From Lonicera japonica (Eukaryota > Streptophyta > Magnoliopsida > Dipsacales > Caprifoliaceae): a stretch of 64,000 nucleotides of DNA. The stretch is taken from assembly GCA_021464415.1 (NCBI GenBank), contig CM038464.1, positions 50,512,783 through 50,576,782 of the forward strand, in the 5' to 3' direction. The notes beneath the pieces were generated by a model that worked only from the letters and a program-made list of their open reading frames with translations, had not been told where the DNA came from and did no database searches. Shown in pieces: positions 34,468 through 60,606 of the stretch. How positions within the stretch are numbered: position 1 is the stretch's first letter; the number at the start of each line of letters is the position of its first letter. The translations under genes and the position numbers were made by a program.

Positions 34468-34800
34468 GGGTAAGGTTTCAATGGTTACCGCTATTTTTAT
34501 TCATGGATGGTTATTCTAATATTAACCGTTGGATGAAAAATTAATGGTTGAGATCAAATGAGTAGTTGGCTAACATAATTAATACACATTGAAGAAATAC
34601 AAACCATTAAGTGCCAGGTTAAGTGGGTAACTTGTTGTTACCTGATGACATGGCATTTTTATTTTTATTTCCATTTAATTTTAAGGAATCTTAAATTAGA
34701 GATTCATTCCATGATTTGCTAATTCCAATCCGGGATATCCCTATTCTTTACCCTTGTAAAATATGATCTCAAATATTATTTGCCAAACACCACACATTGA
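34468..34800 (+). repeat. left terminal inverted repeat of the giant element
   Basis: It starts GGGTAAGGTTTCAATGG next to the TA tract. Relative to the right copy it has about 50 extra bases between the terminal block and the ACATAATTAATACACATTGA block. It ends shortly before the ULP1-like gene and probably supplies part of its promoter. Confidence 0.65.
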
Positions 34801-34984
34801 TTATTGAACCAAAGTAATTAATTATTTAATACTACACTAGTCACGAAGTTTGTATTATCACACCGTAGATCTGATATATAGTATCTCTTCTACTTACAAC
34901 TCTTGATAGCTAGTTTCACAAAGGACCACAAACTAAGTTATATTGGATTGGTTTATTCGATCCATTGAATAGTTTTTAAAGAAA

Positions 34985-36580
34985 ATGAGTTCTAGTGATC
35001 AGGTTAAGGAGGTAGGTGAAAAAGAATGGAGAATACGCATGGAGAGAGAATTAAAAACAGTGAAGAACGAATTAAGTTTGATAAAAAGTTTGATGGTTGA
35101 TAAAGAGTTTATCAAGAGAGAGAGAAACTCTTCTGATGATAACTGTTACGGGGATGATGACGAGTTTTCTTTTATGTCTCGAAAGAAACTCAAGTCATCG
35201 AATGACGATAGTATTAAAATAATAACACATCAAGTTCGTAGAAGTATTTGTACGACGCCAGTGAATATTTGTTTGTTCAAAGATTTCAAACTTAAAATAC
35301 GTTCAGGGCAAAGGAAAGAGAATTGTTGGAGTACATATTCTCGAAATCTGTAAAGCAAGAGTGAGTTATATTAACTCTTCATATAATATATTGTTTGAAT
35401 TACACTAATTTATTTTTCTTGTTTGTATCAGCCAATTGATCGTGGCGAGTGGTGATCATAGCCTTTTGCGTTCTGATTTTCGATATCTCGGTCCCAATGA
35501 GGAAATAGAATCTGAGGTTTTTCTTCTTCTTATTGTTATATTTTTTATTTTTAAAGTAAAATAAGACAAGTACTGTTTCATTCACGTAGTGGTCGTATTG
35601 ACTTTTTTTATTTATGAAATAGATTATTACTATGGTTTCCAAAATATTGACCGAAGATGAGAGATCCAGAACTAGCCAAAAGGCAAGAAAGTGGTATCTT
35701 CCTGCGAGATTAATAGTGAGTATGCCGTTGATTGAATCACTTACTTAAAAAACTTAGTTATTGTTATTAATTTATACTTTTTGCAGAAGGATCATCTGCC
35801 ACATCGTGATCTAACACTACACAAAGTTTGGGGAACAATGAATTACTATAAGACGTTTATGGGATGCATGGACAAGTGCGAGGAGGCAAGTATATATTAT
35901 CTCTTTCGTAATTCGTTTTACGTTCTATATCTAACTAATTGGTAATGTGTTTTACATTAGGTATTCATTCCAATTTTAATTTCAAGACACTACATTCTTG
36001 CACGAGTGTTGTTGAAGACAAAAGTTGTTGAAGTTTGGGACTCTCTATCGGATGCGACACAACCTATTCTTTATTCTGCAAGAATTAAGGATATTGTAAG
36101 TTTAAAATTACGGGATCTCTATTCCACATTGATTGTTTTTCAAAGGTTCATAAAATGTCATTTTTTTTCCTGTAATGTTCCTAATATATTCCAGCTACGT
36201 AATTTGGACTTGGGACTTGAGAGAGAGATTAGAAAGAAGCCTGGAAATTTCAGTTTTTCTAGTTTTCGCATTGTTCGTGCATCATTCGTTCCGAGGCAAC
36301 CTAACGGGTTTGATTGCGGCATGTTTGTTATTTTGTTTATGCAATCTGGATGTAAAGTCGATTCTCGATCCTTTGTGGTAAGATATTTCTATTTGTTTAG
36401 CGTTACTAATTAATTCAATCGTTGTTTCCTTTATTTAATTGTTTTGTAATTATTTTGTAGTTCGACTCAAATGAAGATCGGTGTAGACTAGCATGTTGGT
36501 TGGCGAATTCTAACTACAACAAGCACAGAGATATATTGATGAACGATGTTCGAGAATTTTATTTGAAAATGAACATGTAA
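34985..36580 (+). pseudogene. ULP1-like SUMO protease (C48 family), 7 exons, one frameshift
   Basis: ULP1 enzymes are cysteine proteases that cut SUMO from proteins. Exons: 34985-35360, 35432-35516, 35623-35715, 35787-35885, 35961-36095, 36195-36377, 36461-36580. Late exons carry the catalytic set: His in SRHYILARV, Asp in VEVWDSL, and Gln/Cys in QPNGFDCGMFV. The N-terminal exon is charged and coiled-coil-like. The intron after exon 4 starts with GC (GAG/GCAAGT) instead of GT, which is needed for frame. In exon 1 the frame must shift by one base near 35285-35300 to pass from CLFKDFKLK to the downstream ELLEYIFSKSVKQ, so the copy looks disabled unless this is a sequencing error or an unseen intron. 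About 360 residues. ULP-like genes are known cargo of plant MULEs (KAONASHI type). It lies just inside the left TIR. Confidence 0.82.
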
Positions 36581-37083
36581 ACTGTTTTGAATTTTTTTGT
36601 AAGAAAAAATGAAAAGTTATTATTATGATGCACGGTGCTCAATTTGCATGCCAATGGATTTGATTAATGAAGAGTTATTATTATTTTTTACAATGATGAT
36701 GCACGGTAATCAATATGCATGCCAATAGTTATGATTAAATATTTGTATTCCTCCTCTCTCTAAACACGGTTGGAGAGTAAATTTGGTGTGTATGCTTCAA
36801 GTACTTTAATTAAGTTTCTCTGTCCATACAATCTCAGTTGGAAGTCCAAATGTTAACATGTATTGGAAAAAAGGAAAAAATATAATATGTTTAATTTGTC
36901 ATTGAACTCGGGAAGAAATATTAAAATATTAATTAGTAGTAATATTCATTACAAAGCAAAAACAAAAGCACTACGATAACATTAGAAAGCAAAAAGAAAA
37001 CTACTACGTTAACATCAGAAAGCAAAAACAACACTACTACGTTAACATTAAGGAAACCAACCCAATTCGTAATAAAAAAAAGT

Positions 37084-37356
37084 TCAAATTCTCCTCCTCT
37101 TCTCATTATTCTCTCTCTCCGCCGCTTCTTCCATCTCGAGGTTTGCCTTCCTCAGTTCCTCCAGTATCTCTTTCATCCTCCTATAGGCCTCTTCAAATTT
37201 TTTTGATTCAGCCTCCCACTCTTTTGTCAATCGTTCAGCATAAATCAAATTGTCGATGCACATCTTAGTGAAGTTTAACGATGATATTGGAGGGCTCGAC
37301 GTCGATGGAGATTCTGGTGGGCTCGACGTCGATGGAGATTTTGGAGGAGTTGACAT
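37084..37356 (-). CDS. short coiled-coil protein A
   Basis: A single-exon frame of 90 residues starting at 37356 (MSTPPKSPST). A longer in-frame start exists at 37428, but the inner Met is preferred because the paralog at 44178 starts MSTSPVTPS at the same place. The N-terminus is Pro/Ser-rich with a repeated SPSTSSPP unit; the rest is a charged alpha-helical segment (LTKEWEAESKKFEEAYRRMK) ending in a basic RRRI tail. I do not recognise the family. It shares its upstream sequence with A'. It may be a DNA- or protein-binding partner of the transposase, but no domain shows this. Confidence 0.65.
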   Translation of the reverse strand: MSTPPKSPSTSSPPESPSTSSPPISSLNFTKMCIDNLIYAERLTKEWEAESKKFEEAYRRMKEILEELRKANLEMEEAAERENNEKRRRI

Positions 37357-37500: not shown

Positions 37501-37554
37501 AGTTATTATTACGTGTGCACCTACAATAAAAGAGATGGACGGTTCAATAATCAA

Positions 37555-37935
37555 TAGTTATCTCACCGAATGATGCGTGATCCTTCGGCACAATATTGCT
37601 TTAATATATTTACATTTGCAAAAACAACAGTAATAGTTCAGAAATACATTGAACTTAATGGAGCATTCGAACTGACATTAAACATTGGAACTTATGATTA
37701 CACTTTGGGTTTAATGGACTTTTTAACTAATGTAGTTTTTTTATAAAATGTTTGCGGTTCCTGCGCGTGGCTCCTTCGACAAACCCATATATATCTCACC
37801 GAATAATGCGTGTTCCTTCGGCACAATATTGATTGTATATTTACATTTGCAAAGACAACGGTAACCCTAATACGATTAACTTAATGAAGAATTTGAACTG
37901 ACATTAAATATTAATATGAATTTCAGATTTTACAA
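37555..37935 (-). repeat. inverted copies of the ~240-bp repeat
   Basis: About 1.6 units in reverse orientation relative to the array at 41585-42325. Landmarks are GATCCTTCGGC, ATATTTACATTTGCAAA, GGTTCCTGCGCG and CTCACCGAATGATGCG. Together the two arrays bracket the transposase and gene B. Confidence 0.75.
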
Positions 37936-37997: not shown

Positions 37998-38453
37998 TCA
38001 GACATCGTCCGAAGGCTTCAATAACTCTCTGAGCTTTTTCTCCAGGCTTTCGGTTGCAACGTTGATAATCATAATGTTGGACACGCTAGCATTGAGAAGG
38101 GCTTTCCTTTTGGCATATCTCTCCAAATTTTGTAGCAGCTTGTGCAGCAGTTGGGTCAACTCCGCATTCTGGTAATCCGTCAGTACTTGTCCATCTTGGT
38201 TATGATTTAACTCTTTAGGACAAGAGACATCAGGCTTCATCTTTTTCGTGGGGGATTGAACCTCATCCTCTTGGCGAGTGTTGACCTTCGTCAGGGTAGA
38301 TTGTACCTCATCTTGATGGAGATTCTTAATCTTTTTCAGGGGGGATTGAACCTGTTCCTCCTCTTCGTACTGAATATACCATTCTTCTGCCTCGTTAAAA
38401 TCATTTGTGATCTTTGGTAGCTCTTCAGAATCAGACAGTATAATCAAGGACAT
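37998..38453 (-). CDS. coiled-coil protein B with SUMO-interaction-like N-terminus
   Basis: A single-exon frame of 151 residues. It opens MSLIILSDSEE, a strong match to SUMO-interaction motifs (hydrophobic core followed by Ser and acidic residues). Residues about 30-80 hold three repeats of the type EDEVQSPxKKxK, each with an S-P-x-K kinase-like site or a decayed version. The C-terminal 55 residues form an amphipathic helix region (LTQLLHKLLQNLERYAKRK, ATESLEKKLRELLKPSDDV). No known family is recognised. A paralog, B', lies at 52677-53099 with the same N-terminus, repeats and C-terminus. Promoter landmarks are shared as well. It lies between the inverted repeat copies and the divergent transposase gene. 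Confidence 0.75.
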   Translation of the reverse strand: MSLIILSDSEELPKITNDFNEAEEWYIQYEEEEQVQSPLKKIKNLHQDEVQSTLTKVNTRQEDEVQSPTKKMKPDVSCPKELNHNQDGQVLTDYQNAELTQLLHKLLQNLERYAKRKALLNASVSNIMIINVATESLEKKLRELLKPSDDV

Positions 38454-38846: not shown

Positions 38847-41414
38847 ATGGAACATTCAGTTAGTTCTGCATCTACATTCAATCTTCTAAACCAAAATGAG
38901 GGAGCCATTAACTTATGTGAAGATGATGATGATTTTCTAAGCAACAGCAGAGTGTTGACGCATATTGCTGAAACCGAAAAGGCAAAAGAACAGATTTCAG
39001 AAGATAAATCTTCTAACATGGAAGCTGAAGGTGAAAATGAAGATGGTGAAGATCAACCTCAAAAAGATAAGCAACAGTTATTAGAATGGACAGATCCAGA
39101 TGTTACGGTGTGGGAAGAATTAATGACGTATTTGTGCATTGATAAAGCACCGGAAGACATACAAGATGATGACTTAGTCGATAAAGAGTTCGTTACAATG
39201 GAACAAGCTGAAACATTCTACCATATGTACTCAAAAATAATGGGGTTTAGCATTCGTAAGAAAATTAAAAGGAGAAACTCAGTAGGTGAGTGTATAATTA
39301 GAAGTTGGGTGTGTTCAAATGAAGGATATAGAGAGAATAAATATCAATATCTTGAACGTAGGACTAGGGAGCCAAGAAATATAACTAGGACAGGTTGCAG
39401 GGCTTCATTTAGAATAAACAGAAATAAAGAAGATGGCACATGGTTTGTTAAATGTCTTAGGACACATCACAACCATTCCTTAGCCTTATCCCACCAAAAA
39501 CCATTTCTTAGATCCAGCCGAAAATTAAATGAAGCAGATAGGGAACAAGCAATGTTGATGAAAAGGTCTGGAATAAGGACTTGCCACATTTGGCAATATA
39601 TGGTAGAACAACACGGAGGTTGGCAGAAGGTAGGGTGTATCAAACCTGACTTGTATAGGGGGGTGAGGCAAAAATATGGTGCTTGGAGTGATTGTGATAC
39701 ATCTACGGCAATGGGTTATTTAGAATCAAAAAAGGGACCAGATCCTGAATTCTTCTACAAGCATGCCACTGACGAGGAAGGGAGGTTGACAAATTTGTTT
39801 TGGGCGGATGGAGCGTGTAAAGTCGACTATCAGTTATTTGGTGACTGTTTATCTTTCGATTCCACATATAAAACTAACAGGTACGAGTTCCAAGCTCATG
39901 CCAAATTATTTACATTCATAATAAAATCCACACGTTTTTCTTAATTTGTAATTTTTTTGTAGGTATGGAAAACCATTGGTAGTTCTATTGGGGTCAAACA
40001 ATCACGATAGAACCTGTGTATTTGGTTTTGCTTTACTACAAAACGAGTTGGCTGAAACGTATACATGGATACTAGAGACATTTTTAGAATGTATGGATGG
40101 AAAGCAACCTGATACAGTTTTAACTGATGGTTGTCGATCCATGAACAAGGCACTAGAAGAGACCATGCCAGGTGTTGTGCATCGTATATGCTCATGGCAC
40201 ATAATAAAAAACTCGATACAACATATACATAAAGCTGGATTCTGCGAAGATTTCAAGAGATTAATATTCAGGTAAATAATTGTTACTCCGAACGATCAAT
40301 ATATTTACACTTTTTTTTTTCATTCTGTCTTCTCAACAGGTACTACTCAGATAATCAGTGGGAAGAAGAGTGGAACAAAATGAAGGCCAAACACGAATTA
40401 CTTGAGAATGATTGGTTGGAGGCACAGTACATGACTAGGCATATGTGGGCAGATTCTTTTCTTCGTGGTCATTATTTTGGTGGGAGTAGAGCAACCGGCA
40501 GGTGTGAGTCTATGAATGCTTTTCTCAAAAAGGATTTAGAAGAGGATATACCATTGTGGATGTTTCTTAGACATTGCGACAATGGTTTAGCTGCTTTACG
40601 TTACCATGATATGAGAGAAGACTTTAGAACAAACATGACAGAAGCTGTCCTTGATCGGACCAACATGGAGTTGCTTGAGGAACAGGCCTGTTCAATTTTC
40701 ACTAGAGAGATATTTCATCGGGTGAGGGCTCAGATTCTACGTGCTGATAAATACATTGTTTTAGAACGGACAGAATTACCTAACTACGATGTTTGCGTAG
40801 TGACAAAGTACATGCGCAATGATTCAAAGCGTAAGGTTCTTTACTCTCATGATGGGGATGACGTCAGATGTGAGTGCTATTGGTATGAAACTAAAGGAAT
40901 ACCATGTAGACATATTTTTTCAGTCATGAAGCATTTGAACAAGGCTGACTTCCCAGAATATTTAGTAAAGAGGAGGTGGTTAAGGGATGCAAAAATCATT
41001 GATCCGTCATCAGTAGGTTCGGAGAGAAAATGCCCTCATCCGGATGTCGTAGAGAACACCAGGTATGGTGGCATTAGCACGCAGAGTAATTTGGTCGCAT
41101 TCTACGCTACCAAATCAAGCAAAGCATTCAATATGGCAATGAAGGCTATGACTGGGTTAGTAGTTGAGTTGCAAAAAATGGCGAAAGAAAAAGGAGATGA
41201 TCCTATATCAAGGGACCAAAACTCTGCCACATTGGGTATTAAAGACCCAGCAATTGTTCCAACCAAAGGCAGACCTACTCAATCATCTCAACGTGGAAAA
41301 AGGAAAAGTACAACGACTATTAAGCCAAGATATTGCAAGAGATGTCATGGAACAGGCCACGATTCAAGAAATTGCCCAACCAATGGAGGAGGGACGAAGT
41401 CAAACAAAAATTAA
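38847..41414 (+). CDS. FAR1-type MULE transposase, 3 exons, intact
   Basis: Exons 38847-39880, 39963-40271 and 40340-41414 join in frame (AAC AG/G TAT; TTC AG/G TAC) to give 805 residues. Residues ~115-210 are a FAR1-type DNA-binding domain with the zinc ligands Cys in SWVCS and TGCRAS and His in HHNH. The MULE transposase core follows, with candidate catalytic acids D338 (FDSTYKTNR), D400 (LTDGCRSM) and E504 (GRCESMNAF). A SWIM zinc finger is at about 625-639 (CECYWYETKGIPCRH) and a CCHC knuckle near the C-terminus (CKRCHGTGHDSRNC). The N-terminus is acidic, including INLCEDDDDF. All catalytic and zinc residues are present and there are no stops. It resembles host FAR1/FRS regulators, but the setting inside TIRs with ULP and other cargo favours an active or recent transposase. 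Confidence 0.9.
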
Positions 41415-41584
41415 TAATATTTTTTTTCGTCTTAATTTAGCGCCTTCTTTTTTTCGTAGACATGTTAATGCATCTATGTATATTACATTTTGAGAAAGCA
41501 TTATTTTGTTTATATATCTACATTACATTTTTATTGCACAATATTACTTCGTCATTTCTTCATTTTTTTTCAAATTAAAATTAA

Positions 41585-42325
41585 ACCCATAGTGTAATCT
41601 TAAGTTCCAATGCTAAAGTCCCAGTTATTTATGAACTATTATTATTTAGGGTAACCGTTGTTTTTGCAAATGTATATAAAAAAGACTCTAATTGCCGAAG
41701 GATCATCCATCCTTCGATGGGATAACTAATTGTTTGCCGAAGGATCCACCCGCAGGAACAAGAGACATTTTATAAAATATTTACATTAGTTAAAAAAGCC
41801 ATAAAACCCGTAGTGTAATCTTTTAAGTTCGAATGCTTAAAGTCAGTTCGAATCTCCATTAAGTTCCAGTCATTTCTTAACTATTATTTAATAGGTTACC
41901 GTTGTTTTTGCAAATGTATATAAAAAAGACTTTACTTGCCGAAGGAGCACCCATCATTCGGTGGGATAACTATGGGTTTGCCAAAGGACCCACCCGCAGG
42001 AACAACAGACATTAATAAAATAGTTACTTTAGTTAAAAAAGCCATTAAACCCGTAGTGTAATCTTTTAAGTTCGAATGCTTAAAGTCAGTTCGAATCTCC
42101 ATTAAGTTCCAGTCATTTCTTAACTATTATTTAATAGGTTACCGTTGTTTTTGCAAATGTATATAAAAAAGACTCTACTTGCCGAAGGAGCACCCATCAT
42201 TCGGTGGGATAACTATGGGTTTGCCGAAGGATCAACCCTAAGGAAAATATATGTTTTATAAAATATTTACATTCGTTAAAAATGACATTAAACCCATAGT
42301 GTACTCTTCAGTTCTAAAAAATGCC
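41585..42325 (+). repeat. tandem array of a ~240-bp repeat beside the transposase
   Basis: Three units start near 41585, 41806 and 42048, with a partial fourth at about 42290. Each has TAGTGTAATCTT, ACCGTTGTTTTTGCAAATGT, GCCGAAGGA-CA-CC and TGGGATAACTA. Units two and three are nearly identical. The sequence carries the GCCGAAGGATC motif, whose two copies per unit face the inverted ATCCTTCG inside the same unit. Confidence 0.9.
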
Positions 42326-42465
42326 ATTAAACCCATAGTTAAAAATGCCATTAAGCCATTACACCCAAAAAACTTCACAACCCTACCAAAAAAAAAAAAA
42401 AAAAAGACTTCCCTCTTATGAAGCATTCATCAACACCTATTCCTCGTTCTTCCAACCCCTTGCCA

Positions 42466-42915
42466 TCAGAGAAGATCATCGAGACGGCCCTTCAGATCCC
42501 TGTGGAATCTTATTTTCTTCTTTGTCCCTGCTGCATGGGATGATAAAGTTCTTAACCCGTTGAGGCGCTTGCGGTTGCCAGTTGCGTAGCAAACTGGGCA
42601 GTGCACCATGCCCTTTTGATGGTCATCAACTGTCTCCATAAAGATAGTAATCATTGCCTTTATCCGTCGCTTCTCATCGCTTTCTTCATCGCTTGCTTCA
42701 TCGGTGTCTCCGTCCGGTTCCTCTATAGCCGTTGGATCATACGGCTCTGCTAGGTTCTCGGGCCAATCATTAAGAATATCTTTTGCTGCAGTTTGTGGTG
42801 GGGGAGGGGATTTGTAGTAAGTTGGAGGATTTTGGACGTCAGCCTTCATTTTTGGATGATCTCCTGAGAAAGCATCTGTTTGATCAAACTTGGCTTTTTT
42901 GATTGGTGAAGCCAT
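42466..42915 (-). CDS. small acidic protein with XS-like zinc finger
   Basis: A single-exon frame of 149 residues starting MASPIKKAKF. The N-terminus is basic then Pro-rich (YYKSPPPPQ), the middle is strongly acidic (EEPDGDTDEASDEESDE), and the C-terminus has HCPVCYATGNRKRLNGLRTL, then SSHAAGTKK and FHRDLKGRLDDLL. The spacing C-x2-C, then H-A-x-G, then H followed by a Leu-rich helix resembles the XS zinc finger of SGS3/FDM plant RNA-silencing proteins, but the match is short and made by eye. A ~90-bp module upstream (43139-43229) also precedes the GRF gene. If the finger is real, a role in escaping or using small-RNA silencing is conceivable; this is inference only. Confidence 0.6.
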   Translation of the reverse strand: MASPIKKAKFDQTDAFSGDHPKMKADVQNPPTYYKSPPPPQTAAKDILNDWPENLAEPYDPTAIEEPDGDTDEASDEESDEKRRIKAMITIFMETVDDHQKGMVHCPVCYATGNRKRLNGLRTLSSHAAGTKKKIRFHRDLKGRLDDLL

Positions 42916-43138
42916 TGGAAACAGGTTTTTCGTATCAGAGGTATATGTGTTGCAAATAATTTTATTGCTTGTAGAATCTATTTAAATACAATAGGAAAGA
43001 CTAGTAATTTAATGATGTACGTAATGTGGAAGGCTATACTTTAATGCGCAGGGATTTATATTGGGACTTTAAAGTCCCCATCAACCGTTCCCGATGATTT
43101 TTATGGGTTTTCGAACCGTTTCCATTGTGTGGCTAATC

Positions 43139-43229
43139 GAAAGCAACGATTTAAGTTAGTAATATCTGATTGGGCATGTAAACCTATTGCATACTGCAAC
43201 TAATTAATACTGTTGGAACTCACAAGTTT
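43139..43229 (-). promoter_or_regulatory. shared ~90-bp upstream module, copy 1
   Basis: It holds AAAGCAACGATT, TCTGATTGGGCATGTAAA, GCAACTAATTAATACTGTTG and GAACTCACAAGTTT. The same blocks recur in inverted orientation at 57899-57985. Both copies lie about 190-225 bp upstream of a start codon and face it the same way. Confidence 0.7.
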
Positions 43230-43896
43230 ACATTTATTACTATTTTAAAATTAGGGTAATTTTATTTCTATCCACCAATTAATAATCCTTCAAATATATT
43301 TATTTTAAAAGATAGTTTCCTAACTAGAATATACTTCCTTTAAATATATTTACTTTTAAAAGTAGTTTCCTAATTAGAATATATTTTCCTTAATTTGTTA
43401 AAATTGTATTGATACAAGTACTTTACATTCATTATTTATCAAAAACATACAATATTACAAAACTGGGCGGAATTAATTTATAGCATTACATCTAGTGGAT
43501 TTTTTAAAATGAAATCATTAATAAATAATATTTATAAAATTGAATCAATAATATATTTTTTTTCAGTTTATCCACAATCGTGGATTAATTTAATAGGCTA
43601 CGTGGATTAACTTAATAACGCGGATTAACTTCGAGATATGGTGGACAGAAATAAAATCACCCTAAAATTATTGTGTAAAACGATGTTCAGTGGGTTGAAA
43701 AGCATTTCCTATAAGTTCATGGTTGGGAAACATTTGTTTTTTGTTTTTTAAAACAATTTCGGACAAAATGGCTGCAGGCTACTGAATTAGATGTTCACCC
43801 TCCTTAACCAGAGATTCTCGAAACTACTGATAATTTTCATTAATAATTAAAAAACAAGTAATACATAGCGGACCATTAAAAAAAAGAAAAAAACAT
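43230..43896. other. gene-free AT-rich spacer
   Basis: It contains a short near-duplicate (CTTTAAATATATTTACTTTTAAAAG-like, around 43290 and 43335). No gene seen. Confidence 0.5.
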
Positions 43897-44178
43897 TTAT
43901 TTTTTCCTACTATTCTCCCACATGAGTTCCAATGCATCCATCTCGTCTGTTCTCTTCCGCCTCTTCTGAATCAGCCCATCTATTTTCAATAAGACATCGT
44001 TCATTTTTTTATCGAACTCGTCACGTTCTTCGTCTGAAGCATTCGGGTTCTCTTTCTCAGTTAGCTCTCGAAGTTTTTTGTTTTCGGAAGCCCATTCATC
44101 CGAAAGTCCATCGAGAAATTTTATATACTGGGCACGCTTGACATGAATATCCGAAGGAGTGACTGGACTTGTTGACAT
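43897..44178 (-). CDS. short coiled-coil protein A' (paralog of A)
   Basis: A single-exon frame of 93 residues, MSTSPVTPSDIHVKRAQYIK onwards. It aligns with protein A at the MST-P start, at the L-x-x-EW-x-E-x-K-K core, and in the basic C-terminal part (KRRKRTDEM against EKRRRI). The body is charged and helix-prone. The region upstream is similar to that of A. It does not belong to any family I recognise. The duplication with promoter argues that the protein is useful to the element. Confidence 0.65.
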   Translation of the reverse strand: MSTSPVTPSDIHVKRAQYIKFLDGLSDEWASENKKLRELTEKENPNASDEERDEFDKKMNDVLLKIDGLIQKRRKRTDEMDALELMWENSRKK

Positions 44179-44330
44179 GATCGCTATCTTAGGGGAGAGA
44201 GAAAGTGAAAGTAGAGAAAAGAAGGAAGTTTGTGGGTTGTTTGAATTGTGAATGGTAGTCGGAATTATATACTAGGGCCATCATTATATACTAGGGTGTC
44301 ACTCTGGAAACCGAAGAGATGCACGATAAC
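44179..44330 (-). promoter_or_regulatory. promoter of gene A', similar to that of A
   Basis: It carries TTGTGAATGG-AGTC, TATATACTAG (twice) and CTCTGGAAACC in the order seen upstream of gene A. Confidence 0.5.
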
Positions 44331-45790
44331 CAAGAGGAGATCAGTAAATTAATTAAATTAATTCTGCCTGTGTAACCGTCATACGGGCTTCCTGTAACGT
44401 TACTTCATCCGCGTAGGTTATCATTGCCTTTCAATTCACCTATCAACGACTTCTAATTTAATGATGGCTTTGTCTGTGCCTATAGCACAATAATTTTTTA
44501 TTAACATCAATTTTATAATTTTTGGTTTGAAATTCCATATGATCATGAGAAAAATAAATTCTAGATATGATAAATATTTACAAATCTTAAAAACAAAATA
44601 TTAGTTTTTACACTTTAAATTTAAGAAAAGTTTAAAAATAAAATATTGAATCAATATAAATAAGGAGTTGGATATTAACACTCGAATTAGTAAAATATAA
44701 TATAAGGAGGAATTTTTTCCTCTTTCAGAAAAATATATAAATTTAAACTTTTTATTTTGAATAAAAAAGAAAGAAAAACAAAACTGTCAATGAATGAAAG
44801 AAAGTTGATGTCAATTTTTTAATAAAAAATTCACATGCACAATACTTAATCACTTCTACGGGTGTCCACTCTTTGGTTAAAATTAATTTCTTTTTCATTT
44901 GTTCATTTGATTGAAATAGATTAAAAAAATAATAATAATAATGGACACGTGCCGTTTTGTTATTGGGACCCCATGACCCATCCAATTTTGCCACCACCAT
45001 TTTTTTTTCCGGTGGGTCCCAATATATCAATATCTTATTTAAAAAAAAAATAGAAAGGCAGATATGCGCAATGATTTTGAATCTTTGCATTAAATGCAAA
45101 GACTGCAATGGGGCGCGTGAGCACCCAGTCTGTCTTCTTTGAGACGACTAGCTTTTTTATGTGATTATGTCAGGTTGTGGGCCCGTTGTAATTGGGCGCG
45201 TGAGCACCCAACCTTTATTTGTTTCCTTTTTTAGTGCATATCCAATGGTAGTGTAAATTTTAAAATAATAAGATTTTAACACATGTTGAATATCAATCCT
45301 AGCATTTTTTTTTTGTAAAATTTTTTTAAAATTTTTACAACTGAAGTTATATTATTTTTCTACTAGAGTCTCAAATTACGTAAATCACGTGAAAATAACA
45401 TACCCTTATTTAATTTTAATACTATAAATTTACTACCTACTTTACAATATTTTTTAAGAGTCCTCCAGCAAGAATTTTTTTTTTGTGCCACTTGTACAAG
45501 TTAAAAGTCCATTTTTGCGGGAGATGCGTTAAACAATTTTTTTGTTTTACATCTTCTGCCACCTCTTATTTCACTTTTGTTTCCCGCTTCTCTCCTACTA
45601 CTTCGATACTTCCTTTTGCACAGTACCTAATATGTAGGTACTGGTTTTTCATCATTCAAAGTTTTCTACGTCTTCATTGGTCGGTCGAAAAAAAGAAAAA
45701 AAGAAAAAAAACCCAGACCAAACGAACCCTAAAATTGATAAAAATTTGTTCTCGTTGAAATTCTTCTGTTTCCGAATAGTTTTATTCGTA
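44331..45790. other. spacer and presumed 5' region of the PMD gene
   Basis: Mostly AT-rich. GGGCGCGTGAGCACCC occurs twice, at about 45112 and 45198, near a palindromic TTTGCATTAAATGCAAAG at 45086. A member of the dispersed repeat family (10213 and 26395) lies at about 45235-45475. An in-frame upstream ATG at 45677 extends the PMD frame, but it is in an A-rich leader and is not favoured. Confidence 0.5.
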
Positions 45791-48700: not shown

Positions 48701-49333
48701 TATGAAGGAATGACTGAGCAACCTGGTCATTCTACTGAAGAAGGTGTCGACGCTGATGAGCAAGACTTTTCTTACATGTGGAATGGAATTGAAGACACTG
48801 TGCAAGTTGACCTTCTTCAGAAACTTTCCACCAAGGACCGTGCCTTCTTTCGGTCTTTGGCAAGTCAGTCAACACTCAGGCCACACCTTCTTGGTATATT
48901 TAATGACACCTTCGGTGTGATGGGTGATACTGCCATTGAGCTGCTGAGCGACTTTGACATTGAGCGAATGGAAAGCGCCTTGATCATATTGCATGCGAGC
49001 AAATTGGATACTACATATCTGGAGGAGAAGGTTCGTCTTTTGAAGTCCCTCTCCACTCGCAGCAAAAGTGATAGGCTTGATACTCTCTTTTACTCTGAGG
49101 AAAAACTACTGCGTAAGAAGGAGGAAATTGAAACTCAGAAGGTTGCTTTGGAAGCAAGGATAAGTGCTTTGATGAAGGAAATTCAAGAATTGGAGCAACC
49201 GATGCGCACTTTGGACCGGCAACTCGGTGCTATTGCCGCTGAAAGGAGGCAGTTGCTAGGTGATGTGAAAGAGAGCTTGGGCAAGGAGTTTGATGAAGTG
49301 GTTGGCACTTCACTAGGAGAGTTCCTACGCTGA
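45791..49333 (+). CDS. plant mobile domain (PMD) protein, 4 exons, C-terminal coiled coil
   Basis: Exons 45791-47884, 48101-48365, 48466-48618 and 48696-49333 join in frame to about 1049 residues. Exon 1 holds the plant mobile domain: NNWEVWTDSIL, WSCDTHTFITGWGEFTITLE, DICQLFGLAP, then the long conserved body with LYSWLDRAHSDFRRSMGRYA. A basic stretch (GRSKRKQKSRDAD) near its end may be a nuclear signal. Exons 2, 3 and 4 each begin with a diverged copy of a V-x-EG...SYK-KE-EETAQV-LP unit, so the linker grew by exon duplication. The last exon ends in a coiled coil. PMD occurs both in transposable elements and in host proteins (MAIN, MAIL1) needed for transcription and silencing. Intron 1 includes a MITE-like TTGGAGATGCTCT end. 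No lesions seen. Confidence 0.85.
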
Positions 49334-49849
49334 TGATTTGCCTTCAAACATTTTTTCTTCTTTATTTGTAAATATTTACTGTCACGATTGCTCTTACTTT
49401 TGTAGAAATTTTATTATATTAAGATTTTTCGATATAGAGAAATATTTAAATTTTATTGAATTAGGATATGCTACTTTGGTGTTAGCACTGACGCCACATT
49501 TCAAAATTTAATCAAACTTGTCTCATAATCACTAAATTCTTTTTTAATTCTGAAATATTACTCTCTTCAATGTGTAAAATGGTTGTGTATTAGTTAATAA
49601 TATAAAAAACGTTAATGCCCCAAATTAGACAGAATATGTAGACCGAAAAAAGAAAAAAAAAATTAGACAGAGTACTGGCTTTCCATTAAGTGAAGAAGAT
49701 TACACTTGACTTATACAGAAGGCCAAACATTTCACGATTCAAAAACAAAGTACACTTACAGCGTGAACAAAAAGAACGGACTGAACAGTAGAAGAGCAAA
49801 ACAGGATAAAGTGTCCCCAGTAAGAATATTTATATGGGGGGAACCACCA
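49334..49849. other. spacer between convergent genes
   Basis: AT-rich; probably the 3' UTRs of the PMD gene and of the minus-strand gene at 49850. Nothing else seen. Confidence 0.5.
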
Positions 49850-50182
49850 TCAAGTAGTGTTTTCTTTCCGTTCTCCCAATCTTCTCTGCAGCTCATCCCG
49901 CTCTGCCATGACGGTTGCCAAGCGCTCCTCCAAACTTTGGATTTGACTAACCATTTTGGGGATCTCTCTTTCCAAGTCGGGGATCTCTCTTTCCAAACTC
50001 ACCACCCTTAAGGAAAGGGCCTCGAAGCTATTGGGTGAGGGAGGAACGTTGGAAGTACTGGCTTTATCCATAGTTTGCTTGATGTTTTGGTTAACTAGAG
50101 GTTTGTTCTCCTTCATAAAGGTGGACGATTCTGAAGCACCGGATTCTGCCAAAAATCTATATATGGCTCTGTATAAAGGCAT
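49850..50182 (-). CDS. short coiled-coil protein
   Basis: A single-exon frame of 110 residues from 50182 (MPLYRAIYRF). A later in-frame Met at 50071 (MDKASTSNVPPSPNS) gives a Ser/Pro-rich start like proteins A and A' and leaves room for a leader after the TATA-like GTATTTATAG at 50220-50229, so either start is possible. The body is a heptad-like coiled coil (SLEREIPDLEREIPKMVSQ, ERLATVMAERDELQRRL) with a duplicated LEREIP unit. The upstream ACTCGGGAAACGATGC recalls the GGAAAC block of A/A'. No family is recognised. Confidence 0.6.
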   Translation of the reverse strand: MPLYRAIYRFLAESGASESSTFMKENKPLVNQNIKQTMDKASTSNVPPSPNSFEALSLRVVSLEREIPDLEREIPKMVSQIQSLEERLATVMAERDELQRRLGERKENTT

Positions 50183-50514
50183 GGAATATGAGAAAGATGG
50201 GTTTCTGAGAAGGTGCTTCGGGTATTTATAGCCAAGCTAAATGACCGTTCGCAAAAGGGAGTTATGACACTCGGGAAACGATGCAAAAAATAAAATAAAA
50301 AAGTGAGACGGATAAAGGATACCTATCTACTAAAACTAAAAATCTACTAAAACTAAAAACTAAATAAAAATGCAGCCCCTTCTTACCAAAGAAGTGCCAC
50401 GTGTCGCGTTTTTAACAATTGAGCATTTATATCTCAGTTACTCCTAGTCTTCTTTCATTTAATGCGGCTTTTGAATTTCCTTGCCACTGTAAACACTTTT
50501 CGAAGAAGTTTATT

Positions 50515-50870
50515 ACTCCCTCCGTCTCACAAAGATAGACCCATTTTTTTTCATGTAGATTAAAAAATTTCATTTAATGTAATTGGAACCATAATTTTTT
50601 TTCATATTTTCCCTATTATACCCTCATTTATTCTACTATAATAAATACATTGAATTAGAAGATGAACATACATTTTTTTATCTTTCCTATGGGAAATGAG
50701 TATTTATTAGGTAAAGTTAATTATTTAGGAGTTGATAACAATGTAATTAAATAAGGGTACATTAGGAAAAAGAAAATTTTAGTACATTTTTTAAAAGGCA
50801 AGAGGACTATAATTTGGAACAGACGAAAAAAGAATAGTAAACTATTTTTATTGGACGAATGGAGAATTTG
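50515..50870. mobile_element. Stowaway-like MITE inside the giant element
   Basis: The left end ACTCCCTCCGTCTCACAAAG and the right end AAACTATTTTTATTGGACGA (then ATGGAG) match the Stowaway pattern with a worn right end. About 355 bp, non-coding. It is nested in the larger element. Confidence 0.65.
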
Positions 50871-51376
50871 ATTTGCTTATAGTAAACTATTTTTATATAT
50901 TAATTAGTAACTAAATATTAATTGACTGAGATGCATAAGATTTCTGAAATTTAGTAGGCATTATATAAATAATTGATGTGTAAAGTGATATGTTAGTAAA
51001 AAATTAGTAAAACAAAATTATATAACAAATTCTTTATTAAAACGACCACGCACTGGGTGGACATTATTATATATTAAGCTAGTATTATTATTATTAATAT
51101 TATTTCTAAGTTGAAGATGCCACGTGGAATTTCCCTGAGGGTCATTTCAACGCACGTCTTTTGCATTAAATGCGCGATGGTGACCATTCTCGACTCCCAA
51201 TGGGCAATGGTTACACTCCATCGTTTGGTTGATCGAGCGTGGGACGCGTGTGAACTTGCGCGTGCGGATATGTTAAATACGGAGAAAATATAGAAACAAT
51301 TGAGTTCTTTCTCCCTCTTCGAAGAAAAAACCTAGGGCTTACTCCTTCGTCCTTCTTCTTTCGTCGTTTCTGGAAT
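50871..51376. other. spacer and presumed promoter of the 51377 gene
   Basis: It contains TTTTGCATTAAATGCGCG near 51160, a near-copy of the palindrome upstream of the PMD gene, and TTAAATACGG near 51275. No gene seen. Confidence 0.45.
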
Positions 51377-51793
51377 ATGTCGACTCACAGGAATCTGGAT
51401 ATCTTTCTTGTTGAAGCCGAACCCATTCCTCGTAGGCTCCGACGGTCGGATACGGGCGATGCAAGTGGTTCCAACTCGACAGATGTTAATCCAAACGAGC
51501 ATTATTTCGAAAGGATCCGACGGGTAGAGGCGGAATTGAAAGGTAAAGTCCACCGGATGGAGTGTGAAATAGTTGACCTTGACTCTAAGCGGCGTAACCT
51601 TGGGGTAAGATATGAGCAATTGAGGACAAAGTACGAGATGTCTGTATCCCGGGAGGCCAGCACAAATGCTTATGCTGATGGCGTGCTACAAGACTCCATC
51701 CGATTGGGGAGGGAGCAAGAAGAACAAATCCGCCGATTGAGGGAAGAAAATGACCGACTGCGACGTGCACTGTTACGGTTATACCTAAAATGA
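51377..51793 (+). CDS. coiled-coil protein
   Basis: A single-exon frame of 138 residues starting MSTHRNLDIFLVEAEPIPRR. Residues about 40-135 are almost continuous heptad-like helix (FERIRRVEAELKGKVHRMEC, EQEEQIRRLREENDRLRRAL), ending in LRLYLK. I do not recognise a family. It resembles the C-terminal coiled coil of the PMD protein and the other short cargo proteins in composition only. The start was chosen because it is the first ATG after the leader and gives an MST start, as in A and A'. Confidence 0.65.
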   Translation: MSTHRNLDIFLVEAEPIPRRLRRSDTGDASGSNSTDVNPNEHYFERIRRVEAELKGKVHRMECEIVDLDSKRRNLGVRYEQLRTKYEMSVSREASTNAYADGVLQDSIRLGREQEEQIRRLREENDRLRRALLRLYLK

Positions 51794-52676: not shown

Positions 52677-53099
52677 TTAAATATCGTCCGAAGGCTTGAA
52701 AATCTCAGCGAGATTTTTCTCCAGACTCTCAATGGTAGCGTTGATAAACATAATATCGGTCACGCATGCACTCAAAAGGGCTTTTTGTTTGCCATATATG
52801 TCCAAATTTTCATGAAGCTTGTTCAGCAGTTGTGTCAAGTCCTCTTTCTGGTCAAGTTCTTTACCATTGTTCTCTCTAAGGGGAGATTTAACCTCATCCT
52901 CTTGGCGAACATTGATCTTTTTGTGGGGAGATTCAACGTCATCCTCTCGGCTAACCTTGAGCTTTTTAAGCGGAGATTGAACCTCCTCCTCATCCTCTTC
53001 TTCGTAATGAATAGAACACTCATCTGCCTGAGTAACATTTTTTTTGTTGATTTTCTTTTTTGGTACTTCTTCAGAATCAGACAAAATGATCAAAGACAT
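52677..53099 (-). CDS. coiled-coil protein B' (paralog of B)
   Basis: A single-exon frame of 140 residues. It opens MSLIILSDSEE, identical to protein B through this SUMO-interaction-like motif. An acidic stretch (YEEEDEEEVQSPLKK) is followed by repeats EDDVESPHKK and EDEVKSPLRE, as in B. The C-terminus (LTQLLNKLHENLDIYGKQKA, IESLEKNLAEIFKPSDDI) aligns with the end of B. The pair diverged mainly in the middle, with the motif and helix kept, which suggests selection. The upstream region is also shared. Confidence 0.75.
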   Translation of the reverse strand: MSLIILSDSEEVPKKKINKKNVTQADECSIHYEEEDEEEVQSPLKKLKVSREDDVESPHKKINVRQEDEVKSPLRENNGKELDQKEDLTQLLNKLHENLDIYGKQKALLSACVTDIMFINATIESLEKNLAEIFKPSDDI

Positions 53100-53270: not shown

Positions 53271-53464
53271 CATGTTAATCTTAGAACTTCGAACTTTTTA
53301 TTCTACCACTGCATCACATTAAATGCAACCTGCCACGGCGTGACTTGGCGCCCAAAATTAAGTTGAAATGAACACGGCATTGCCTAGGGAGATGACCCGT
53401 GACATTTGTACAATCCGATGAAGCCAAATGAGAATAAAGTAGAAGGAAATTTTGTGGAACGGAA

Positions 53465-53905
<441 letters not shown>

Positions 53906-54185
53906 ATCCGAAAACCTACCGAACAAATTTAACTGATTCACACCAATCCAAAAAACAATGAAATATTATTGTAGTAGTACTATTGTACTACTACTAACAG
54001 TAGTAGTAGACAATTGGTACGTAGCATTAGTAGCTCAGTATGTTTAGTACTAATTTAGGGGGTGTTATGGCAAATCCGAAAACCTACCAAACGAATTGAA
54101 CAAATTCACACTGATCCAAAAAACAACGAACTAATAGTACTATTGTACTACTATTACTACTACTACTGACACCACTGCTATTGAC

Positions 54186-54216
<31 letters not shown>

Positions 54217-54217
<1 letters not shown>

Positions 54218-54281
54218 AGGAAAGAGGTTGGCCCAGTGGTAGGCAACCTCCACCCTCGGTGTAAGATCAAGGGTTCGACTC
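54217..54281 (+). mobile_element. truncated SINE in satellite unit 2
   Basis: It starts GAGGAAAGAGGTTGGCCCAG after a TAG run and stops after the B-box-like GGGTTCGACTCA, losing the 3' half. Confidence 0.75.
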
Positions 54282-54454
54282 AGCTCAGTATGTTTAGTAC
54301 TAATTTAGGGGGTCTTATGGCAAATCCGAAAACCTAGCAAACGAATTGAACAAATTCACACTGATCCAAAAAACAACGAACTAATAGTACTATTGTACTA
54401 CTACTGCTACTACTACTGACACCACTGCTATTGACGGTAGTAGTAGTAGTAGTA

Positions 54455-54611
54455 GAGGAAAGAGGTTGGCCCAGTGGTAGGCAACCTCCACCCTCGGTGT
54501 AAGATCAAGGGTTCGACTCATGGGGTGGGAGGGAAGGGTTTTTCTTTATTTGTAGGATTAAGGGAGAGACTTAGACCTCCCTTAAATTTAAAAAAATAAA
54601 AATAAAGAAAA
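54455..54611 (+). mobile_element. full-length SINE in satellite unit 3
   Basis: The same 5' end and A/B boxes as the copy at 54217, with the complete 3' part (GGGAGAGACTTAGACCTCCC and an A-rich tail), closely matching the SINE at 11216-11371. It follows a TAG run at the same point in the unit. Confidence 0.8.
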
Positions 54612-54957
54612 TAGTAGTAGTAGTTGTTGTAATAGAAGTAGTAGTAGACAATTGGTACATAGTATCAGATGCTCAGGGTGTTTACTACTAATTTAGGGGG
54701 TGTTATGGCAAATCCGAAAAACAACAAGCTATTAGTACTAATAGTACTATTGTAACTATTACTGGGTGTTTAGAACTAATTTAGGGGGTGTTATGGCAAA
54801 TACAAAAAGCTACCGAACGAATTGAACAAATTAACATCGATCCAAAAAACAACAAACTAATAGTACTATTGTACTACTACTACTATTACGACTGACACCA
54901 CTTTTACTGACAGTAGTAGTAGACAATTGGTACATAATATTAGAAGCTCAGCATGCT

Positions 54958-55045
<88 letters not shown>

Positions 55046-55295
55046 GTTGTCACCACTACTACTGACAGTAGTAGTAGACAATTGGTACGTAATATTAGTA
55101 GCTCAAGGTGTTTAGTACTAATTTAGGGGGTGTTATGGTAAATCCGAAAGCCTACCGAACGAATTCAACTGATTCACACCAATCTATAAAACAACAAAAC
55201 TAATAGTACTATTTTAGTAGTGATAGTTAAAAATAAAGTGATGTGATAGACAATGGTCACATCACACTAGTCACATTATTGTAACTAGAATTTAG

Positions 55296-55561: not shown

Positions 55562-55568
55562 AATTTAG

Positions 55569-56703: not shown

Positions 56704-57114
56704 ATGATTAAAACAACAACGGCGAAGATAGACAGTGCAGACCACGTTCCAAAATCCCTCATGAGTGAAGGAACCTCAAGGAAACGCCGCAACGACGGAG
56801 TTGAGGAGAGTGATCCTCAAATAAACATGTCGGAATCTGCTCCGAAGAAACTAATGAAGACATTTCAAATTTTGGAGTGTGAAGAAGAGAGGGCAGAGAA
56901 GAAGACGAAGAAAAACAAGAAGAAGAAGATGAAGAAGAACAAGAGAAAGAAGTACGGAAATCATGTCGATACCGACATTGACAAATTTGAAGCGTGGTTG
57001 AAGTACGAAGACAGAAGCGACCATGTGAGCCCTTCTCTGGATGGTAAAGAGGAAGAAAATGGTTATGTTCTGGACAGCGATGATGATGAACCTCCAAACC
57101 ACTCCCATCGATGA
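56704..57114 (+). CDS. lysine-rich nuclear-type protein
   Basis: A single-exon frame of 136 residues. Residues ~60-85 are a long run of Lys (KKTKKNKKKKMKKNKRKK) that should act as a nuclear or nucleolar signal. An earlier GTSRKRRND is also basic. The C-terminus is acidic with GYVLDSDDDEPP, which has some likeness to a SUMO-interaction motif. There is no known domain. It could be accidental low-complexity coding, but the open frame, leader and composition shift make a real gene more likely. It lies between a MITE-like spacer and the GRF gene. Confidence 0.5.
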   Translation: MIKTTTAKIDSADHVPKSLMSEGTSRKRRNDGVEESDPQINMSESAPKKLMKTFQILECEEERAEKKTKKNKKKKMKKNKRKKYGNHVDTDIDKFEAWLKYEDRSDHVSPSLDGKEEENGYVLDSDDDEPPNHSHR

Positions 57115-57600: not shown

Positions 57601-57609
57601 TCGACTGTT

Positions 57610-57880: not shown

Positions 57881-57898
57881 TAAAATAGTCATAATTTG

Positions 57899-58175: not shown

Positions 58176-58535
58176 ATGGGAGCACTAGATTATTCTAGCA
58201 GCAGCAATTCAGGAGAACAAAATCTCGTTTGCAGGCCAAAGCTATGCTTCTGTGGGAAAAACGCCTCCGTTAAGATTAGCCGGACACTGAAAAACCCAGA
58301 TAGGATTTTCTATTGCTGCAAGAACAATGGCTGCGGTTTTTTTGAATGGTTTGTTCAACCAAGTGCTCTGTCTTCTCTTCCAGAAGAGAACAAAGATAGG
58401 TCGACACATTCTACTACTTCAGCTTCTGTTAATATTCTAAATAAGCACGAGAAACTGTATGTTATGGTTCTCATTGAAATTGTGTTAACAGTTGTTTTAA
58501 TTCTTCTTGTAGTTTGCATAATATTAAAGATGTAA
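58176..58535 (+). CDS. GRF-type zinc finger protein with C-terminal membrane helix
   Basis: A single-exon frame of 119 residues starting MGALDYSSSSNSG. Residues ~20-60 are a GRF-type zinc finger: C-x-C in KLCFCGKNA, then TLKNPDRIFYCC and GCGFFEWF, with the four Cys and the FF-x-W signature. Residues ~96-118 are strongly hydrophobic (VLIEIVLTVVLILLVVCII) and form one membrane helix before a short KM end. Plants have many small GRF-plus-membrane-helix genes, often repeated in the genome. GRF fingers bind single-stranded nucleic acid in other proteins. The stop is followed by AATAAA-like sequence at 58551. It shares an upstream module with the XS-like gene, which ties it to the element's cargo. 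Confidence 0.75.
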   Translation: MGALDYSSSSNSGEQNLVCRPKLCFCGKNASVKISRTLKNPDRIFYCCKNNGCGFFEWFVQPSALSSLPEENKDRSTHSTTSASVNILNKHEKLYVMVLIEIVLTVVLILLVVCIILKM

Positions 58536-58559
58536 AAAATCAGTTATTTCAATAAAATT

Positions 58560-59277
58560 TGATCTCTGTTCTATCCATTGTGTTTCTTCTTTTGTTTTGC
58601 ATAATATTATTTGATATGTAAAAATCAGTTACGGTTTCATTGTCCTTCAAATTGCGGATTAGATAATTTACAATTAACTAATTTACAAAATTTTAATTTA
58701 TTAGTATTTGGTTGTGTAAATTGAACAATTGTAAAGATGATAATTCAAGTTGATTCACAAAAACTCAAATTAGTCATTTCAAGTAAAACTTGAAATTGCC
58801 CCAAATTCAAGAATTAGATAATTCATTCCAACTCTATTTTTCGAGAAGATCTAGTATCTACCCCGTGATGTTGATGCATCTAGACAAAATTTTAAATGAC
58901 ATAGAACAAAAGGGAACATTATTCTAACAATTGAAATTGAATTAGTCATAAATGAGCAAATTCACAATTCTTCAATCGAAAATTAACCATAATTCAAAAA
59001 TTAGGTAATTTACACAACCAAACGGGTGGTGTTTTCAATTAAATTTTATCAAAATCTTTGTTAATTAAACCCATTTGCGTCTTAAAGATAAATTTGACTG
59101 ATGATACTTAAAAGACAAAAATACAAATTCTATATTTCCTCAAATAAGCTGTTTCAATATCCAGCTGGGTCTTAAATAAAAATAAAAATAAAAATACATA
59201 TATACATGAGACTTCAATGCATTAATGATATTATAGTTTTTATTTCACCAGCAAATAAATAAAAATATCTTTCCTAA
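58560..59277. other. spacer
   Basis: AT-rich sequence between convergent genes, with scattered AATTA/TAATT inverted pieces. No gene seen. Confidence 0.5.
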
Positions 59278-60164
59278 TCAACGTCCACCTCCGGCTCCGG
59301 GCACTACTTCACTTGTCACCAATCCATCTTCCTCATCTCCATTTCTGTTTTGATTGCCTTCATATTCTTGCTGCAAAGGAAACAAATAAAAAATAAGTTT
59401 TATGTTATTAATCAACCAAGTACATTAAATACTCCTATAATCAGATCAAACGGTACTTACAATACGACGTCGTAACTCATGTATTACAACGTTAGAAGCA
59501 TTCAACCTATCTCTCGATTCTAGCATCTTCGAAACTAGTATGTTTTGCAACCCAACAATCATTCTCAGCAAGGTAGACACTTTCTCAACACTAACCTACA
59601 TTTGTAAAATTATATTATGTATCAAACATAGGATAATAAAAATATATATATAAAAGGAAAAAGTAAGAACAAACATTAAAAAACATATCCACTTACAAAT
59701 CTAACATGTTCTGGAATTTGTATATTGTTCATGTTAACATCTGATGGTATATTTATAGTCATTGGATCACCATCTTGGTCTGGAATAAGAAAGGTCCAAG
59801 GCGGTATTGGGACATCGTCATCTTCAATTAGACTAACATTTCCATTACTGGCACAATCCTAATAATTTAAGATGTACAGATATTATTGGTTAAAATAGGG
59901 AAACATGTTAAGCAATTCTCGAATACAGGAAAAAAAAAAACAAACAAGCAGACTATACACAAATATTACCAAAAAACCGTGTGAGGAACACAGATCAAGC
60001 TTCGTACGACTGGTTCTGCCTCGATTCTTGAATCTTGATGATGATGATCCCTCAGACTTTTTAGGGGAAAAATATCGGCGAGCATTGTCTACGATCTCTC
60101 TTGATCTTCTCCGGTAGTTACGTGATCTTGTTGGAACTTGCTGTGATGCTCCAACAGATCTCAT
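59278..60164 (-). CDS. unknown protein, 4 exons, basic N-terminus and helical middle
   Basis: Exons 60164-59970, 59858-59697, 59595-59461 and 59370-59278 join in frame with canonical borders to 194 residues. The N-terminus is rich in Arg and Ser (RSRNYRRRSREIVDNARRYF) and is probably a nuclear or DNA-binding segment. Exon 2 has NVSLIEDDDVPIPPW, where VSLIEDDD fits the SUMO-interaction consensus. Exon 3 is an amphipathic helix (VEKVSTLLRMIVGLQNILVS), likely a coiled coil. The end is acidic and then Gly-rich. No family recognised. It is the last gene before the right TIR and is transcribed away from it. Confidence 0.72.
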
Positions 60165-60369
60165 CTTAGAAGCAGAAGAAGCAGCTCTGTATTTTACTTT
60201 TCTTTCTCTCTCAAAGACTCAGACAAAAAAAATAAACAAACAAAAAGCAAAGAAAGTAGAGTTGTACGTAAAATGTAACATGGTATATAGAGATGAAAAA
60301 TCAAACTCAAATCTATTTTGAAGTGTTATTTCCTATAAACATATGCCATTAATTAACTATAAAACTGAA

Positions 60370-60606
60370 ATGACTAAAACACCCATGTGCACTTATCCTA
60401 ATCCGGAATTGGGTTATACCAAGTCTGTTTGGCAAATGGAATCTTTAAAGAATCTAAAAGATTAATTAAAAAAAAAAAAAAAAAAAGATCCGGTCACCTT
60501 AACCTGCTATAACAGGTTAAGGGATATGCCAACTCATCAATGTCCATTAATTATGTCAGTACCCATCTATGGGTAGAGAGAGAAGGTAACCATTGAAAAC
60601 TCTTCC
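60370..60606 (-). repeat. right terminal inverted repeat of the giant element
   Basis: Read from 60606 on the minus strand it starts GGAAGAGTTTTCAATGG and follows the left copy block by block, including ACATAATTAATGGACATTGA. It contains a GTTATAGCAGGTTAAG piece and a 20-base A run on the plus strand. Confidence 0.65.

Follow-up and report, generated by a model that had tools for sequence, protein, structure and literature searches.

The 64,000-nucleotide window analysed here, from Lonicera japonica (assembly GCA_021464415.1, contig CM038464.1, positions 50,512,783 to 50,576,782), contains at positions 34468-60606 (26,139 bp) a complete Mutator-like DNA transposon (Mutator-like element, MULE). 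Comparison with the rest of the genome indicates that this stretch is very probably a copy of a giant autonomous MULE. The mobility of the whole 26-kb unit is well supported by comparison between copies, and from its gene content we infer that its own transposase acts on it and that its accessory genes counter silencing.

Termini and genomic copies

The ends proposed in the initial annotation proved exact to the base: GGGTAAGG starts the element at 34468 and CTCTTCC finishes it at 60606. The left terminus reads GGGTAAGGTTTCAATGGTTACC at 34468 and the right terminus reads GGAAGAGTTTTCAATGGTTACC on the opposite strand, ending at 60606, the two being identical at 18 of the 22 terminal bases. Beyond this 22-bp core, a weaker inverted repeat continues inward for about 250 bp, giving a left terminal inverted repeat (TIR) at 34468-34720 (forward strand) and a right one at 60354-60606 (reverse strand), both with approximate inner limits. 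The alignment of the two TIRs is above chance, but only modestly so, with a local score of 39 against a maximum of 37 among 500 shuffles, and 39 was reached by 2 of 300 random window pairs. The ends are nevertheless accepted as real because copies elsewhere in the genome share them, and a chance resemblance of the two ends was rejected on the same ground.

The genome searched comprises 886 Mb in 967 contigs, with nine large contigs (C1 to C9); the window lies on C2. A glycosyltransferase gene of this genome shows 91% identity to Lonicera macranthoides, which speaks against kochia as the host, a candidate that was rejected; matK yielded fragments only. Other copies with the same ends, as the earlier proposal of a mobile unit implies, were found as close copies spread over C1 to C9: the best 40 of 749 candidates for a left-end probe were 96-100% identical, and the best 40 of 801 candidates for a right-end probe were 94-100% identical. 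Thirty left-end copies were fetched, one being that of the window, and in 29 of the 29 others homology ends inside the same TA tract (34440-34459), in agreement with the earlier placing of the ends beside TA tracts. The terminal core of 16-18 bases is kept with at most two mismatches by all 60 fetched ends (60/60, including the two of the window).

Five collinearity probes (left end, transposase, PMD exon, cc8/cc3p, and right end), scored at the best 40 places each, fell into 78 clusters. All five were present, with a spacing that deviated from expectation by no more than 1.5 kb, in at least 15 clusters, including that of the window, and at least three of the five were present in at least 32; six probes (these five and one for GRF-g12) each matched at least 40 places. 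A distant copy on C1 (109.5 Mb) is collinear end to end, with main blocks of about 87-97% identity and with deletions, and an older copy on C8 (54.8 Mb) is left-truncated and keeps the right two-thirds in order, with main blocks of about 79-87% identity. Gene order is thus kept between copies, as shown by the five-probe clusters and the end-to-end alignment of the C1 copy, and a composite of nested insertions was rejected by the collinearity at these 15 or more places. At least 13 PMD matches, including that of the window, are full-length and round to 100% identity, which points to a young burst.

A mobilised short form of 15-18 kb was also considered and, on the single short copy read, rejected. 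This copy, of 17 kb (C3:77583104-77600175), is a private deletion of the interval 42267-51734, and its junction occurs once among the best 40 places. A second copy of the element lies outside the window, about 33 kb downstream (C2:50606565-50632831). Composite units of 44-48 kb, formed by internal duplication or nested insertion, were observed at C2:21116952-21165034 and C5:47470279-47514341; the former contains two PMD copies within one end pair, and its ends share a single exact 10-bp target duplication.

Target sites and an empty site

Nineteen end pairs were assembled from the fetched loci, and the flanks agree over exactly 10 bp in 17 of them. Since a flank match in long TA runs is uninformative, the weight is carried by the four pairs outside pure TA runs (TATTTATCAT, ATTTATATGT, ATATATGTAA, and ATATATATAA), all of which show the exact 10 bp (4/4). 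In the window, the corresponding target-site duplications (TSDs) lie at 34458-34467, in the TA tract, and at 60607-60616, their 10-bp length being set by the copies outside pure TA runs.

The joined flanks of three insertions (the window, C1:38.27 Mb, and C2:21.1 Mb) were used as queries for empty sites, and one true empty site was recovered. It belongs to the C1:38.27 Mb copy and is located at C1:38930252-38930683, with 98.9% identity over 792 bp and with ATTTATATGT present once; the same junction is also spanned by four less similar places (84-85%). In the genome search with the joined flanks, nothing spanned the junction of the window's insertion, and the C2:21.1 Mb junction had no full-length match, only 23 repeat copies (77-84%) that reach 14-35 bases past it. 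Comparison between copies thus shows that the element inserts whole, as 26 kb, that its targets are A/T-rich and mostly (TA)n, and that insertion duplicates 10 bp. The central proposal of the initial annotation, movement of the region as a single unit, is upheld by the same ends, the conserved order, and the empty site; the gene programme that it ascribes to the element is a hypothesis.

Transposase and ULP genes

Thirteen genes were modelled on splice signals and open frames rather than on transcripts, namely ULP, cc2, cc3, transposase, a CPVC-type protein, cc2p, PMD, cc7, cc8, cc3p, g10, GRF, and g12. Pfam families were found for the transposase (FAR1, MULE, and SWIM), ULP (C48), PMD, and GRF, which supports all four of these assignments in the initial annotation; the other nine proteins were below the cut-off. 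Three features of the MULE superfamily are present: the MULE domain, a target duplication in the range of about 8-11 bp (here 10), and TIRs. TIRs are common in MULEs but not universal. The honeysuckle element is a very large gene-rich MULE, within a known kind of transposon.

The transposase gene (38847-41414, forward strand) consists of three exons (38847-39880, 39963-40271, and 40340-41414) and encodes 805 amino acids, with a MULE domain matching PF10551 (98 bits, E = 4.6e-28) and a CCHC knuckle read by eye at the C-terminus. Its frame is open, and the sequence is 95-100% identical in the best 40 scored places. Identity to the top three protein matches, which come from Cannabis, Humulus, and Ulmus, is 51-52%, and two of these matches are named FAR1-RELATED SEQUENCE 5-like.

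The ULP gene (34985-36581, forward strand) has eight exons, including one GC-AG intron, and encodes a C48/Ulp1-type protease of 345 amino acids. It stands alone on the same strand as the transposase, and C48 is its sole Pfam family above the cut-off, the N-terminal half of the protein being unassigned. In an alignment with yeast Ulp1 (1euv), its H, D, Q, and C residues fall on those of the yeast enzyme, and we take them to be the catalytic residues of an Ulp1-type protease. In Citrus sinensis, proteins P0010, P0013, and P0014 contain a FAR1/MULE transposase fused to C48 (ULP), partners that are two separate genes in the honeysuckle element.

PMD, GRF, and small-protein genes

The PMD gene (45791-49333, forward strand) has four exons (45791-47884, 48101-48365, 48466-48618, and 48696-49333) and encodes a protein of 1049 amino acids with a plant mobile domain and a coiled-coil-like C-terminal part; its only relatives are two remote matches of 25-26% identity. 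The GRF gene (58176-58535, forward strand) encodes 119 amino acids, with a GRF zinc finger followed by a hydrophobic C-terminal tail.

Several small proteins are labelled coiled-coil-like, a label resting on weak Pfam similarity or reading by eye. These include cc2 (37084-37356, reverse strand, 90 amino acids) and its distant paralogue cc2p (43894-44178, reverse strand, 94 amino acids), both read by eye, as well as cc7 (49850-50182, reverse strand, about 110 amino acids) and cc8 (51377-51793, forward strand, 138 amino acids). The paralogues cc3 (37998-38453, reverse strand, 151 amino acids, starting with MSLIILSDSEE) and cc3p (52677-53099, reverse strand, 140 amino acids) share 79 of 135 identical residues, and cc2 and cc2p share only 17 of 67, so that the paralogue pairs noticed earlier differ in strength. 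The copied promoters described with them are supported for cc3/cc3p alone, where the similar sequence lies upstream, about 70-160 bp from the start codons.

The gene at 42466-42915 (reverse strand) encodes a 149-amino-acid protein with a CPVC...H zinc-finger-like motif; it had been read as XS-like, and zf-XS gave no match in the Pfam scan. The remaining genes are g10 (56704-57114, forward strand, 136 amino acids), rich in lysine and glutamate, and g12 (59278-60164, reverse strand, four exons, 194 amino acids), which has no Pfam family and is intact in 26 of 30 copies, including that of the window. A microsatellite-rich stretch with long TAA/GTA repeats is located inside the element at 53440-55260. 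Outside it, Copia-type retrotransposon-like open frames were recognised, by eye only, at 357-2842 and 22014-24180.

A non-coding tandem repeat beside the transposase gene

A non-coding repeat unit of about 243 bp, containing TGCCGAAGGA, follows the transposase gene on its 3' side as three main copies in direct orientation (right block, 41580-42308) and is found beyond cc3 as two inverted copies, one near-full and one partial (left block, 37554-37866). Seven occurrences of its 10-mer (TGCCGAAGGA) were counted where 0.02 would be expected. The largest copied block is situated on the 3' side of both the transposase and cc3, and its left arm is also found about 200 bp upstream of cc2. In the genome, the unit was found in at least 40 places (135 matching rows) with varying unit number, and all of the scored places (40/40) coincide with the position that the repeat should occupy within an element cluster. 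It had no match in the C8 copy, which is truncated before the repeat region, or in 1.6 kb of one small element with nearly the same termini. In VANDAL elements, short motifs tandemly repeated in non-coding DNA are bound by the anti-silencing VANC proteins (PMC10398659), and by this parallel the 243-bp repeat is a regulatory candidate.

Accessory genes: selection or ballast

Several observations weigh against an autonomous element with functional accessory genes. Eight right-hand accessory genes compared with the C8 (54.8 Mb) copy gave a ratio of nonsynonymous to synonymous substitution rates (dN/dS) of 0.63 (0.54-0.76), with wrong-frame controls at 0.69 and 0.80. Against both old copies, that on C8 and that on C1 (109 Mb), changes are even over codon positions, with no third-position excess. 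Within the family, the corresponding polymorphism ratio (pN/pS) is 0.81 for ULP and 0.93 for g12, and copies are often broken, 17 of 30 (that of the window included) retaining an intact ULP frame over the 245 codons covered. All five collinearity probes occur together in only 15 of the 78 clusters, although a missing probe does not mean loss of that part because only the best 40 places per probe were scored. In addition, two of the 19 end pairs (C228 and C3:82.85 Mb) are without an exact 10-bp duplication and show an 8-bp match only. These copies, C228:3820-30092 and C3:82851629-82877881, have a common right flank and different left flanks, and one or both may be rearranged, given the 8-bp match and the common flank.

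The comparison with the C1 copy gave a dN/dS of 0.76 (confidence interval 0.60-0.98). Both dN/dS values are indecisive because both old copies are broken, with premature stops in each, and because the wrong-frame controls overlap for C8. Between the paralogues cc3 and cc3p, differences at the three codon positions number 35, 23, and 52 of 135, mostly at the third (p = 0.003), with dN of 0.26 and dS of 0.79. Three comparisons put the frequency of insertions and deletions in non-coding DNA at 4.6 to 7.8 times that in coding DNA, a contrast that low-complexity spacers partly confound. These sequence comparisons do not cleanly demonstrate that the accessory genes are under purifying selection.

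The strongest alternative is that the mobile entity is a compact MULE of transposase and ends, with a 26-kb interior made up mainly of host and transposon sequences that were passively captured or nested and then amplified as ballast, and that the accessory frames have no role. MULEs are known for gene capture (review PMC13317346), the codon positions carry no selection signal between copies, and one copy survives without the middle of the element, the loss extending from the XS-like gene to inside cc8. However, that copy, the only short one read, can be taken as a dead-end deletion, the same gene order is found in many copies, and both the rarity of coding indels, with the confounding noted, and the mostly third-position cc3/cc3p differences speak against idle frames. 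We regard this alternative as rather unlikely.

Small elements with nearly the same termini

When a single mismatch was allowed, a pattern for both termini matched 519 places genome-wide, and a reversed-pattern control matched 0. Among the 100 matches listed, 33 have the giant's ends (manual count), and the rest are mostly of a sister type (GGGTGAGG / GGATGAG). The matches listed also include eight neighbouring, opposite-facing terminus pairs 3.9-5.1 kb apart, such as C4:21394375-21398881 and C1:28726333-28730207. Within one such element, the central 1.6 kb showed no frame longer than 63 amino acids and no transposase similarity. These 3.9-5.1 kb elements are probably non-autonomous relatives moved in trans.

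The shared termini could also be turned around: the giant might be a non-autonomous passenger driven in trans by another transposase, its internal FAR1 gene being irrelevant. The termini are common to a second family that makes up the majority of the listed matches, and therefore either family could be the driver. Against this, an intact 805-amino-acid transposase is aboard and highly conserved in its best 40 places, and the middle of the small element has neither a long frame nor transposase similarity, which makes a passenger giant improbable. Segmental duplication or an assembly artefact instead of transposition is hardly credible: common flanks occur in a few copies (C4:64.57 and 64.61 Mb on the left; C228 and C3:82.85 Mb on the right), but flanks mostly differ, target duplications are exact, copies lie on all nine large contigs, and for the C1:38.27 Mb copy the empty site contradicts it, on which ground segmental duplication was rejected.

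Comparison with known elements

A literature search of openly licensed papers listed none that describes this element. The closest likeness of the transposase, judged by domain architecture, is to Jittery-type MULEs (group 36 in PMC6446971), which also have FAR1 at the N-terminus and SWIM or CCHC at the C-terminus, and whose listed TIR lengths of 39-292 bp fit the honeysuckle TIRs. However, that group is listed with one open reading frame (ORF) and a TSD of 8 bp or not indicated, in contrast to 13 genes and a 10-bp TSD.

KAONASHI and VANDAL/VANC elements share with the honeysuckle element a MULE with ULP-type and extra genes and a short motif in non-coding tandem repeats (PMC13317346, PMC10398659, PMC2528002). 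As described in these sources, KAONASHI are non-TIR MULEs with ULP reverse to the transposase, on VANC-type genes, whereas the honeysuckle element has a stand-alone ULP on the transposase's strand, TIRs, and 13 genes. It thus departs from the "no or degenerate TIR" that characterises KAONASHI / VANDAL, although a VANDAL group is listed with TIRs of 46-174 bp in PMC6446971. From the kinship with KAONASHI suggested earlier, the presence of a ULP gene within a MULE stands, and nothing further holds.

In kochia, EPSPS duplications are flanked by a mobile element of 16 kb (PMC6808082) that resembles the honeysuckle element, by description only, in being large and mobile and in carrying an FHY3/FAR1-type and a ubiquitin-related gene. 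Four genes are predicted in it, among them a member of the endonuclease/exonuclease/phosphatase superfamily, and the paper does not use the phrase "mobile domain"; no endonuclease/exonuclease/phosphatase domain was above the Pfam cut-off among the honeysuckle element proteins scanned. The grapevine MULEs Mutavine-1 (17.7 kb) and Jitvine-2 (14.4 kb) are likewise long and multi-copy, some with ULP, but are shorter, and the survey section on them presents no 13-gene set (PMC2528002). MuTAnT of Medicago also inserts into TA microsatellites and combines an autonomous element with many small relatives, but its autonomous copy is 4.9 kb with one ORF, and its TSDs are mostly unresolved in that report (PMC4486113).

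PMD genes borne by MULEs have been reported, with anti-silencing use offered as speculation in PMC5418596. In those MULEs, PMD appears as a transposase fusion or as a listed motif or ORF, often antisense (PMC5418596, PMC6446971), unlike the separate 1049-amino-acid protein on the transposase's strand found here. Pack-MULEs, which are non-autonomous, a few kb long, and composed of host gene fragments, differ from the honeysuckle element in its intact transposase, complete frames, and 26-kb length.

Proposed mechanism and implications

In the proposed mechanism, the FAR1/MULE transposase would bind and cut the shared termini, so that the giant element moves, and would also move the 3.9-5.1 kb elements in trans, their ends being almost identical. 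The accessory genes (the SUMO-protease-like ULP, PMD, GRF, and the small coiled-coil-like proteins) may help such a large target to evade host silencing, perhaps via the element-specific tandem repeats adjoining the transposase gene, on the model of VANDAL/VANC. By this analogy, counter-silencing is the likeliest role of the accessory genes. A more specific version, which we consider doubtful, is that a full counter-defence kit (a SUMO-protease-like enzyme, PMD, and small coiled-coil/zinc-finger-like proteins) acts on expandable CCGAAGGA repeats and staves off silencing, so that a 26-kb element bursts where other large cut-and-paste elements fail. If true, such a counter-defence element would be to plants, in its logic alone, what gene-rich giants such as Starships are to fungi.

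Size limits are assumed for cut-and-paste elements. According to a review, the founding Pack-MULE survey had none above 7 kb, transposition falls with cargo size, and a red alga has CACTA elements of 16-20 kb with 4-5 ORFs (PMC6431247); the grapevine survey describes MULEs of up to 17.7 kb (PMC2528002). An element of 26 kb and 13 genes with a young burst is a natural test case for the mobility of large transposons, and it is suited to asking what accessory genes buy large DNA transposons. Giant gene-rich elements of this kind could also be taken for host gene clusters in genome annotation.

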